Position numbers and translations under genes: made by a program. Below, one piece after another: positions 9,123-12,001 of a DNA stretch of 64,000 nt. How positions within the stretch are numbered: the first letter of the stretch is position 1; each line of letters begins with the position of its first letter. This stretch comes from Bacteroidota bacterium (GTDB lineage: Bacteria > Bacteroidota > Bacteroidia > Chitinophagales > Chitinophagaceae): positions 62,001-126,000 of the forward strand of contig VGGR01000004.1 in assembly GCA_016868585.1 (NCBI GenBank), given 5' to 3'. A model generated the notes under the pieces. That model was not told where the DNA came from, did no database searches, and saw only the letters and a program-made list of their open reading frames with translations.

Positions 9123-9299
9123 TTACTTAGCTGGTTCAGCAGCAGGAGCTGTTGTGTCAGCAGCAGGAGCTGTTGTGTCAGTAGCAGGAGCTGTTGCTTC
9201 AGCAGCAGGAGTTGTTGCTTCAGTAGCAGGAGCTTCGCCACCACCATTACAAGCTACCAATGTAGCTGCGATGAAGGCAATTGCAAAAAACTTTTTCAT
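9123..9299 (-). CDS. Small Ala/Thr/Pro-rich repeat lipoprotein, 58 residues
   Basis: Short gene read directly from the minus strand: MKKFFAIAFIAATLVACNGG begins a classic lipoprotein signal with the lipobox LVAC (Cys17). The mature part is a 40-residue low-complexity chain of Ala, Thr, Pro and acidic residues made of heptads such as TTAPAAD and ATAPATD, ending EPAK. The coding DNA is a 21-bp tandem repeat. It has its own terminator downstream at 9079-9098. No function is known to me. A flexible lipid-anchored acidic spacer on the inner face of the outer membrane is the simplest reading. The divergent neighbour is an ECF sigma factor gene, and the two share a spacer with a 14-bp palindrome. 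Confidence 0.85.
   Translation of the reverse strand: MKKFFAIAFIAATLVACNGGGEAPATEATTPAAEATAPATDTTAPAADTTAPAAEPAK
9136..9234 (+). repeat. 21-bp tandem repeat, about 4.7 copies, inside a lipoprotein gene
   Basis: Units start at 9136, 9157, 9178, 9199 and 9220 (last one partial). The unit has the form TCAG[C/T]AGCAGGAG[C/T]TGTTG followed by TG or CT. The first two copies are identical. The period of 21 nt keeps the reading frame, so copy-number change would add or remove heptapeptides. Confidence 0.85.
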
Positions 9300-9319: not shown

Positions 9320-9333
9320 GTGAAATATTTCAC
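9320..9333. promoter_or_regulatory. 14-bp perfect palindrome between divergent genes
   Basis: GTGAAATATTTCAC is a perfect dyad lying 20 nt upstream of the lipoprotein start and about 100 nt upstream of the sigma factor start. It has the size and symmetry of an operator for a dimeric regulator. This is an inference; no regulator gene is adjacent apart from the sigma/anti-sigma pair. Confidence 0.4.
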
Positions 9334-9358
9334 GAATTTATACACTTTTTGGCAAAAG

Positions 9359-9402
9359 GTAACCCAAAGACAATTATTTTTTTAGAAATCGGTTCGGGTT
9401 AC
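9359..9402. promoter_or_regulatory. Spaced inverted repeat upstream of the sigma factor gene
   Basis: GTAACCC (9359-9365) and its complement GGGTTAC (9396-9402) are 30 nt apart, in the leader/promoter region of the sigma gene that starts at 9437. It could be an operator pair or an mRNA leader stem; evidence is symmetry only. Confidence 0.3.
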
Positions 9403-9436
9403 TATTTTTAAATTTCTGTATTAAACTACGAGGATA

Positions 9437-10012
9437 GTGAATAACAAACTTTTGGATGTTGATCTTTTAAAAGGGCTTGCAGCTGGTGACCGGAAGGTAA
9501 TTGGAAGGATCTACAAAGACCATTTCAATATGATTCAGTCATTGATTGTCAATAATAATGGCTCTACAGATGATGCTCGGGATATTTTTCAAGAAGCAAT
9601 GATTGTGCTCTATGATAAGACCAGGGCTGGATCTTTTGAGTTGAATTGCCAGTTAAAGACCTACCTCTACTCGGTAAGTAAAAGATTGTGGTTGAAGCGG
9701 TTACAACAAAATAACCGACTTTTATCACAGGAAATTGATCCGGACACCACCATTTTAGTGGAAGAGGAAATTGCCGGTTTTGAGAAAAGAGAGGCTGAAT
9801 TTGAATTAATGAATCAAGCTATTCAGCGACTAGGCGAACCTTGTGGAAGTTTGTTAGACGCCTACTATATAAGAAAAATGAACATGCAGGACATAGCGCT
9901 TCAATTTGGTTACACCAATGCTGATAACGCAAAAAACCAGAAGTACAAGTGCCTGATGCGGTTAAAGAAACTTTTCTTTTCGGAATATAAAAACGGAAAT
10001 CCAAATGGATGA
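9437..10012 (+). CDS. ECF-type RNA polymerase sigma factor
   Basis: 191 residues in the sigma-70 ECF size class. An N-terminal region 2-like segment (GLAAGDRKVIGRIYKDHF, then DDARDIFQEAMIVLY, the DxxQExF-like core of region 2) is followed by a linker and a region 4-like helix-turn-helix (NMQDIALQFGYTNADNAKNQKYKC) that would read a -35 element. The start is GTG at 9437. The stop overlaps the start of the downstream membrane protease by 8 bp, so the two are translationally coupled. The neighbour's cytoplasmic part resembles an anti-sigma factor, which suggests that this sigma is held at the membrane until a periplasmic signal arrives. Which genes it controls is not visible. Confidence 0.85.
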   Translation: MNNKLLDVDLLKGLAAGDRKVIGRIYKDHFNMIQSLIVNNNGSTDDARDIFQEAMIVLYDKTRAGSFELNCQLKTYLYSVSKRLWLKRLQQNNRLLSQEIDPDTTILVEEEIAGFEKREAEFELMNQAIQRLGEPCGSLLDAYYIRKMNMQDIALQFGYTNADNAKNQKYKCLMRLKKLFFSEYKNGNPNG

Positions 10013-11108
10013 TTTGCAGTTACTGAATGAGATAGAAAGATACATCAAAGGGGAAATGTACCCGGACGAACGCGTACATTTTGAACAATTGCGCAAATCC
10101 AATACAGAGGTTGACCAACTAGTGGTTGAACATACTTTTTTCCTGCAACAAATGAATCGTTTTGGAGAGTGGAAACGTTTCAAATCTTTGATGAAAGAGA
10201 TCCATGTTGACTTAGCCGAAAAAGGCCAAATAAATTCAACTCGATTGCAAGGCAAGTTAAAAGTAATATACCTCTGGAACCGATATAAGAGAATAAGCGC
10301 TATTGCAGCCTTAATAGCCGTAATCACCACGCTGGCAATTTCCTCTTTGGTTTGGATGATTGCGCCTAACGCTCCCCGTTCACAGTTTGAAGAGCTTAAT
10401 AATAGGTTTAGCCAACTGGAGGATAAGAATAGAAAACAAGCAAGAGAGATAGATCGGATAAAAAATAAAACTTTTTCTGCTCTTCAGGATATTCCATTTA
10501 CTACCGGAGGCACTGGATTTATTATTGATGCCAAAGGCTATTTGGTCACTAATGCCCACGTAATAGAAGAGGCCCGGCAAATTGTTATTCAGAATAACCG
10601 TGGCGAATACCTGGCACAAGTGATCTTTCAAGATCAAGAGAGAGATATTGCCATTTTAAAAATTGAAGACCCGAATTTTAAACCCTACTCCGGCCTGCCG
10701 TATGGCCTCAGCAAGCAGACCGCAAAACTGGCGGAACCTATTTTCACCTTAGGGTACCCCCGCAATGAAGTAGTGTACAGTCAGGGTTATTTAAGTGCAA
10801 AGACTGGATTCAACGGAGACACACTGAGTTGTCAAGTAGAAATCAATGCCAACAGAGGTAACAGTGGTAGCCCCATATTCAATCGCAAGGGAGAGGTAAT
10901 TGGCATTTTGAATGGCCGTCAGACTAACACACAAGGTTTTGCCTTTGCCGTACAAAGCAAATACATTTTTGATGTTATCGAATCGTTGAAAAAACAAGAT
11001 AATAGCCCCACCATTCGTGTCCCATCCCGATCATTACTGAATGGGTTGGACCGCACAGAACAGGTACGGAAGGTGCAAGACTATGTTTACATGGTCAAGG
11101 TAAATTAA
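10005..11108 (+). CDS. Membrane-anchored trypsin-like (HtrA-type) protease with anti-sigma-like cytoplasmic domain
   Basis: 367 residues in four parts. Residues 1-90 are cytoplasmic and resemble the N-terminal part of Bacteroidota anti-sigma factors (IERYIKGEMYPDERVHFEQL). One transmembrane helix spans about 98-119. A short coiled coil (about 127-155) precedes a periplasmic S1C-type chymotrypsin-fold domain with the full triad His185 (TNAHV), Asp214 (ERDIAIL) and Ser287 (RGNSGSP). No PDZ domain follows, unlike DegP/DegS. The gene overlaps the ECF sigma gene by 8 bp. My inference is that one protein both tethers the sigma factor and senses or processes envelope damage. The alternative is a plain DegS-like protease whose N-terminus only looks like an anti-sigma domain. 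Confidence 0.8.
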   Translation: MDDLQLLNEIERYIKGEMYPDERVHFEQLRKSNTEVDQLVVEHTFFLQQMNRFGEWKRFKSLMKEIHVDLAEKGQINSTRLQGKLKVIYLWNRYKRISAIAALIAVITTLAISSLVWMIAPNAPRSQFEELNNRFSQLEDKNRKQAREIDRIKNKTFSALQDIPFTTGGTGFIIDAKGYLVTNAHVIEEARQIVIQNNRGEYLAQVIFQDQERDIAILKIEDPNFKPYSGLPYGLSKQTAKLAEPIFTLGYPRNEVVYSQGYLSAKTGFNGDTLSCQVEINANRGNSGSPIFNRKGEVIGILNGRQTNTQGFAFAVQSKYIFDVIESLKKQDNSPTIRVPSRSLLNGLDRTEQVRKVQDYVYMVKVN

Positions 11109-12001
11109 TCCCAAAGTTTAACGGGATATTCCCCCTGCTGAATCAACTGTTGGAGCTGCTGCTGCACAAAGGGAGTATCCTCTTTGTAGGTAACCCCAAA
11201 CCAAGTTGAATTGATGGGAATTACTTTTACCCTCCCTCCTTGCTGTATAAATTGATCCACTACTAAGGGTATAAACAATTCGGATTTTAATTCTTTTCCG
11301 GCTTCCTGTAAAAAATCAGCAAACTGTTTTGCTGTCATTTCAAAGAAGACAGGATCGAAACACCAGAAATTCATAGACACCTGGGTATGCTCCGCTAAGG
11401 TTTGAGGAAACCAGCCATCCTCGCAGGTGATGGCCCCATTTACGCGAGCAATATTGATCCGCTCAGTAACATTTGCCAAATCGCCCTGGCTATTCAATTG
11501 ACACACGCCTCGATTTACTGGACCCTGCTCAGAAAGGGTAGCGGTGAGGTCGTATCCTATAATTCCAAAAGTGCGGCCATCACAACTTGTTTGCAGAAAA
11601 TTAACGGCCTGTTCAAATGCATTTCTTCCGTAAAAATCATCCGCATTGATAACGGCAAAAGGTTCTTTCACAACCTCTTTTGCGCAGAGCACTGCATGAG
11701 CCGTGCCCCAAGGCTTGGTGCGATCCGCTGCATAGTCATAGTCATTGGTAAATAAATCCAGTTCCTGAAAGACGTAATCGGTTTGAATGCGTCCATTAAG
11801 TTTTGGCTCAAATATGGACTGAAACTGTGAAGCAAACTGCGCTCGTATAATAAACACCACCTTTCCAAAACCCGCACGAATCGCATCATAAATCGAATAA
11901 TCCATAATGGTTTCACCTGAGGGGCCAAAAGATTGGACCTGTTTCATGCTTCCATAACGGGAAGCCATACCAGCTGCAAGAATCACCAGGGTTGGTTTCA
12001 T
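11105..12001 (-). CDS. Sugar-phosphate nucleotidyltransferase-like protein
   Basis: 298 residues. The N-terminal LVILAAGMASRYG.MKQ pattern is the glycine-rich nucleotide-binding signature of NTP transferases (Rossmann-like GT-A fold), followed by GETIMDYSIYDA and a metal-binding region INADDFYG (Asp-Asp). The likely reaction couples a sugar-1-phosphate to an NTP. The substrate is not identifiable, and the C-terminal left-handed helix domain of GlmU/GlgC is absent. The gene has its own TAnnTTTG box at 12020-12027, and its 3' end overlaps the convergent protease gene by 4 bp. Confidence 0.8.
   Translation of the reverse strand: MKPTLVILAAGMASRYGSMKQVQSFGPSGETIMDYSIYDAIRAGFGKVVFIIRAQFASQFQSIFEPKLNGRIQTDYVFQELDLFTNDYDYAADRTKPWGTAHAVLCAKEVVKEPFAVINADDFYGRNAFEQAVNFLQTSCDGRTFGIIGYDLTATLSEQGPVNRGVCQLNSQGDLANVTERINIARVNGAITCEDGWFPQTLAEHTQVSMNFWCFDPVFFEMTAKQFADFLQEAGKELKSELFIPLVVDQFIQQGGRVKVIPINSTWFGVTYKEDTPFVQQQLQQLIQQGEYPVKLWD

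Follow-up and report, generated by a model that had tools for sequence, protein, structure and literature searches.

An ECF sigma factor gene paired with the gene of a membrane-spanning HtrA-type protease in Chitinophagaceae: a candidate envelope-response module

Layout of the locus

The window analysed here is a stretch of 64,000 nucleotides from a Chitinophagaceae genome whose assembly comprises 1.77 Mb with a completeness of 99.39%. Within this window, an ECF sigma factor gene overlaps the gene of a membrane-spanning HtrA-type protein, and a small lipoprotein gene is encoded divergently upstream of the pair. The features of the locus are as follows:

9123..9299, minus strand: small lipoprotein gene (58 aa; signal peptide, lipobox and Cys)
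9337..9365, minus strand: promoter motif towards the lipoprotein gene, GGGTTAC-N15-GTATAAA
9396..9424, plus strand: promoter motif towards the sigma gene, GGGTTAC-N15-GTATTAA
9437..10012, plus strand: ECF sigma factor gene (191 aa, GTG start)
10005..11108, plus strand: gene of an anti-sigma-type membrane protein with an HtrA-type protease domain (367 aa, ATG start)

A first-pass annotation of the window had described the sigma factor as fused by overlap to the protease. The two reading frames do overlap, by 8 bp (9437-10012 and 10005-11108), but the sigma factor is not fused to the protease chain. At its other end, the protease gene overlaps by 4 bp (11105-11108) a convergent minus-strand gene at 11105-12001, which by eye resembles a nucleotidyltransferase gene.

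The sigma factor passes the cut-offs of the NCBIfam sigma70-ECF model (TIGR02937; 61.3 bits against 42.9, residues 25-178) and of Pfam Sigma70_r2 (27.2 against 24). Its start codon is GTG in 206 of 235 loci. Twelve nucleotides separate the end of the sigma -10 motif from the GTG in the window (region 9418-9439), and the distance from the motif to the chosen start is 9-13 nt in 169 of 203 cases. Because the -10 motif lies so close to a start that is mostly GTG, the sigma transcript probably has little or no leader, and this property appears to be conserved.

Conservation of the sigma/protease pairing

The first-pass annotation had named homologous proteases occurring mostly without an adjacent sigma gene as the outcome that would count against its proposal. 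The survey returned the opposite: of 240 homologous loci, a set in which some genomes occur twice (220 of the 230 pairs kept for alignment are distinct), 235 have a sigma gene immediately upstream, so the gene arrangement is not due to chance. The remaining five loci have no adjacent sigma gene and differ at the N-terminus.

All 29 of the best homologues within the family have a sigma homologue upstream, one being cut by a contig end (L010) and one apparently frameshifted (L007). Among relatives with named genomes, whose titles include Chitinophagaceae bacterium, Niabella, Lacibacter, Flavisolibacter, Flavihumibacter and Niastella, the sigma gene is upstream in 80 of 80 loci, two of these sigma genes being cut by contig ends. 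The spacing there ranges from -14 to +13 bp, and the overlap of exactly 8 bp is found in 25 loci; spacings were taken from loci analysed without the nearest-start rule, since choosing the start nearest the sigma stop biases the spacing towards zero. The pair is present in 109 of 109 further family loci.

Across the phylum, a survey of 296 genomes gave protease matches at 1e-25 in 26, with the pair present in 21 (families f1, f3, f9 and f10) and absent in five, which have another N-terminus. A sigma search within the order added a sigma/trypsin pair in a fifth family (L191, f67). Within the family, protease matches at 1e-10 were obtained in 192 of 195 genomes, and the pair was checked in 145 of these 192 (the source genome, L003-L035 without duplicates, L046, L047 and L201-L309); genomes with a weaker best match may contain only other HtrA proteins. 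Loci L048-L052 encode the protease domain and C-terminal tail behind other N-termini, several of them lipoprotein-like, with no sigma gene nearby.

Architecture of the membrane protease protein

The 367-residue protein can be divided into five parts:

10005..10244, plus strand: N-domain, residues 1-80 (three helices predicted; proposed to bind sigma)
10293..10364, plus strand: membrane helix, residues about 97-120 (hydrophobicity, AlphaFold2)
10365..10499, plus strand: stalk helix region, residues 121-165 (conservation, AlphaFold2; the least conserved part)
10500..10994, plus strand: trypsin/HtrA-type domain, residues 166-330 (Pfam, conservation, Foldseek; H185, D214, S287)
10995..11105, plus strand: C-terminal region, residues 331-367 (predicted helix and strand where a PDZ domain would sit)

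One transmembrane helix, a trypsin-fold domain with intact His185, Asp214 and Ser287, and the lack of a PDZ domain had all been read from the sequence in the first pass, and each of these readings was borne out. The protease domain matches Pfam Trypsin_2 at residues 169-301 (E 2.8e-23), and its trypsin fold with a His-Asp-Ser triad is that of the HtrA/DegS proteins; the triad, encoded at 10557-10559 (H185), 10644-10646 (D214) and 10863-10865 (S287), is kept in 126 of 126 sigma-paired homologues. The NCBIfam HtrA and DegS models match below their cut-offs, the DegS model scoring 74.1 bits against the required 422.95, and a Pfam search found no PDZ family at E<=1. DegS without PDZ ranks among the best Foldseek matches of the protease.

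The segment at about 97-120 is the single hydrophobic one, no further 19-residue window exceeding 1.3, and the positive residues ahead of it fit an N-in, C-out orientation. AlphaFold2 (mean pLDDT 81, pTM 0.55) predicts helices at 3-15, 20-32, 34-72, 85-119 and 126-158, followed by the trypsin fold and a conserved C-terminal tail made of a helix (350-360) and a strand (361-366). Conservation is lowest in the stalk (0.38), and the membrane helix (0.65) nearly equals the protease (0.67), a pattern that would agree with a stalk loose enough to be cleaved and a membrane helix that has to be recognised; the alignment of homologues shows no evident conserved cleavage site in this stalk. The earlier proposal that tether and protease sit in one chain is upheld: the anti-sigma-type domain and the intact protease, joined by a membrane helix, are paired with a sigma gene in at least five families.

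The N-terminal domain as an anti-sigma module

The anti-sigma-like character attributed to the N-domain in the first pass gained support from its genomic neighbourhood but found none in significant family matches. Profile searches gave no significant match in Pfam, NCBIfam or PDB sequences, and neither ASDI nor zf-HC2 matched significantly: zf-HC2 matches the N-domain in 8 of 39 members (best E 0.039) and the related protein L195 (E 0.01), and the NCBIfam antisigma model matches in 2 of 39 members, all below significance. In the PDB profile search, no anti-sigma chain is found among the matches listed (60 of 133), and these were discarded as spurious, all but one of the 60 being PPAR receptors. 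Foldseek with the N-domain alone returned 11 matches, five of which are anti-sigma chains (four RslA, 3hug, and one SigK partner, 4nqw), all with E >5. The layout of ASDI proteins, a helical N-domain followed by a membrane helix in a gene adjoining that of the sigma factor, is present.

The neighbourhood evidence comes from an HMM of the N-domain built solely from the protease family (209 sequences), with which 470 ORFs of the window and of selected loci were searched. Ranked below the window protein are ORFs directly downstream of more distant sigma relatives, with E-values of 2e-11 (L191), 3e-11 (L195), 4e-10 (L194), 2e-4 (L196) and 3e-3 (L197); the next match has 0.78. By Pfam, L191 continues into a trypsin domain, L195 into TPR over the cut-off and L197 into weak TPR matches only, while L194 and L196 have no family over its cut-off. 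At one of the nine sigma-relative loci (L198), no such N-domain protein lies downstream. Since the same N-domain recurs beside this sigma clade with a changing C-terminal part, it behaves, as far as sequence comparison can tell, as expected of an anti-sigma module. At L194-L197, the ORF after a related sigma gene joins this N-domain to a different C-terminal part; together they resemble a wider and mostly unnamed anti-sigma family.

We analysed coevolution in 220 distinct sigma/protease pairs (Neff 168-180) with mean-field DCA and MI-APC, and couplings between sigma factor and N-domain are modestly enriched. With APC applied inside the inter-protein block, enrichment of the N-domain block is 1.57, 1.61, 1.41 and 1.38 at the top 50, 100, 200 and 500 couplings, where 55, 1, 0 and 9 of 287 sliding blocks, respectively, exceed it. 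When the sigmas of near relatives are exchanged (10 repeats), the enrichment is still 1.40, 1.37, 1.36 and 1.31. Because the enrichment is nearly unchanged after swapping (1.61 against a mean of 1.37 at the top 100), we attribute it mostly to phylogeny or column variability.

Twin promoters and the divergent lipoprotein

The gap between the sigma and lipoprotein genes holds two back-to-back copies of a promoter motif, GGGTTAC-N15/16-GTATWAA. With spacers of 14-17 nt, the source genome contains three exact matches: the divergent pair, which are the two with a 15-nt spacer, and one with a 17-nt spacer on contig C14. In homologous loci, the strict motif lies upstream of sigma in 202 of 231. Of the 202 distinct intergenic regions, 136 carry it in both directions, 40 have only a copy facing sigma, 14 only a copy facing the lipoprotein and 12 have neither; a looser motif is found in both directions in 171, in one only in 28 and in neither in 3, and after shuffling it occurs in both directions in none of the 202. 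The 117 family genomes searched yield 232 exact matches against 39 for a reversed control, and 103 of these genomes have at least one.

A divergent small lipoprotein ORF is present in 223 of 231 loci (119 of 122 in an earlier set), most often about 140 bp from sigma. Under a fixed definition, such an ORF occurs at 109 of 112 loci against 95 of 1883 random positions. The mature lipoproteins have a median length of 50 residues, consist to 76% of A/T/D/K/S/V and are almost without aromatic residues; the window protein has a low-complexity mature part and ends in Lys, as do 154 of 223. Lpp is not among the Pfam matches at E<=1 for four of these sequences, and the source genome has two YkuD matches, one with an internal stop. 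The lipoprotein gene and the twin promoters, which the first pass had not described, make the module look like a closed loop.

A perfect palindrome, GTGAAATATTTCAC, is located at 9320-9333 in the lipoprotein leader, just beyond its -10 motif. The sequence TGAAATATTTC occurs at similar positions in 30 of 202 distinct intergenic regions, and the palindrome is a possible operator.

Further targets in relatives

A wider regulon could not be extracted from the source genome, where allowing up to two mismatches gives 25 matches against 44 for the reversed control. Queries there with two kinds of protein described below returned nothing at E<=0.01 (CBM48-like) and one marginal match (an exported protein of ~140 aa).

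In relatives, copies of the motif stand ahead of lipoprotein genes in tandem (L177, L182), of one located about 6.4 kb away from sigma (L186, L322) and of others at further places in the genome (L314, L323, L324). We hand-picked 40 extra-module sites among the matches listed and classed them by BLAST or lipoprotein pattern: seven precede lipoprotein ORFs, seven CBM48-like proteins (found also at L167 and L188), five exported proteins of ~140 aa, three sigma genes, which are not truly outside the module, and 18 are unclassified. Two of the CBM48-like proteins score at the AMPK1_CBM cut-off in Pfam. For the ~140-aa protein, the five cases found by BLAST become seven by eye (L311, L312, L318, L326, L332, L337 and L339), and the one member scanned has no Pfam match; it is a recurrent exported protein with the same promoter motif. 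Single extra-module sites prove nothing, because the reversed control predicts about 39 chance matches in 117 genomes. One such site, possibly due to chance, lies upstream of an apparent primary sigma gene, rpoD, judged by eye in one genome (L319).

Proposed mechanism and alternatives

We lean towards reading the locus as a self-contained ECF envelope-response module that combines a leash, a fused protease, self-amplifying twin promoters and a lipoprotein output. Without a signal, residues 1-80 of the membrane protein would keep the sigma factor tethered to the inner membrane. The periplasmic HtrA-type domain would sense the state of the envelope, in the form of proteins that are unfolded or in the wrong place, the lipoprotein of the module possibly among them. 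Engagement of the protease would lead to loss of the anti-sigma domain, in the simplest case by clipping its own stalk or that of a neighbour (residues 121-165), after which a site-2 protease, of which the source genome has a homologue, would cleave the membrane helix. The freed sigma factor would use the GGGTTAC-N15-GTATWAA promoters, increasing expression of its own operon and of the divergent lipoprotein. We infer, in short, that the state of the protease controls sigma release.

The main alternative, which we consider rather unlikely, retains the anti-sigma factor and makes the protease an output: an enzyme of quality control that is produced along with its regulator, sigma being freed either by a substrate-loaded protease altering the stalk or membrane helix, or by a separate protease. 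Protease and sigma do share one self-amplified operon, the source genome encodes one other HtrA-like protein (query match at E<=0.01), and related anti-sigma-type proteins carry other C-terminal parts such as TPR, so sigma could be released without a fused protease; this account leaves unexplained why tether and protease are joined in all paired homologues instead of being encoded apart. A more specific version of the self-cleaving switch, which we hold to be somewhat less probable again, is that the one-chain anti-sigma factor and site-1 protease monitors lipoprotein traffic, with the small disordered lipoprotein as main output and reporter. If so, a lipoprotein stuck in the inner membrane, or not anchored via its C-terminal Lys, would engage the HtrA-type domain, which would cut its own leash, free sigma and reset the lipoprotein supply.

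The sense of sigma binding cannot be read from sequence, and no family significantly names the N-domain an inhibitor. Some FecR-type proteins act as co-activators or recruiters of sigma factors, and the N-domain might do likewise; we nevertheless regard this as improbable given the repeated, if sub-significant, likeness to inhibitors (zf-HC2, antisigma and five of 11 Foldseek matches). Least probable of all, in our judgement, is that the lipoprotein is an unrelated divergent neighbour outside the circuit. Synteny can preserve such neighbours, and lipoprotein-pattern ORFs do turn up at random positions at the rate given above, but this one has its own copy of the motif, and the motif is kept at tandem, distant and dispersed lipoproteins in relatives.

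Regulated proteolysis of anti-sigma factors usually relies on a separate site-1 protease that must find its substrate. Here the proposed leash and the protease share one chain, so cause and effect become testable by a single S287A mutation. The module is frequent in one large family and occurs in at least four others; it would supply one missing type of Bacteroidetes anti-sigma factor and, with it, the promoter motif, a lipoprotein output that is conserved and a few additional targets. A published survey reports that class I anti-sigma domains adjoin only 6% of Bacteroidetes ECFs, and the words "protease" and "peptidase" occur there in the reference list only (PMC7406223). We found no description of the module in the literature searched; the 2021 ECF classification may already include this sigma factor in an unnamed group.

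Comparison with known systems

The module lipoprotein recalls Braun lipoprotein Lpp in being small, poor in aromatics and frequently ended by Lys. In Lpp this residue is joined to peptidoglycan; the module lipoprotein differs in having no Lpp family match (four sequences) and in its low-complexity A/T/D/S repeats of variable length.

The class I anti-sigma factors RslA, RskA and RseA likewise place a helical N-domain ahead of a membrane helix and are encoded beside an ECF sigma gene, but here there is no significant sequence match and a protease is fused on the periplasmic side. The RsgI anti-sigma factors of Clostridium are not known to have a trypsin domain, and they belong to the SigI type, other than this sigma clade. 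Their release is reported to proceed via RseP after an upstream cut (PMC12203970), which parallels the route proposed here.

In RseA/DegS-type pathways, anti-sigma factor and periplasmic protease are separate proteins. The E. coli sigmaE/RseA/DegS/RseP envelope stress system shares with the module an ECF sigma factor, a membrane anti-sigma factor, an HtrA-type protease and a site-2 protease homologue (PMC8103513); the module differs in its anti-sigma-type domain and protease forming one chain, in the lack of PDZ and in the divergent small-lipoprotein gene. With DegS itself, the 367-residue protein shares an N-terminal membrane anchor and a trypsin domain, but it has no PDZ, an extra N-domain, a C-terminal helix-strand tail and a model score of 74 against 423 bits. 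By analogy, it would work like RseA and DegS in one chain, while being neither DegS nor a recognised ASDI member.
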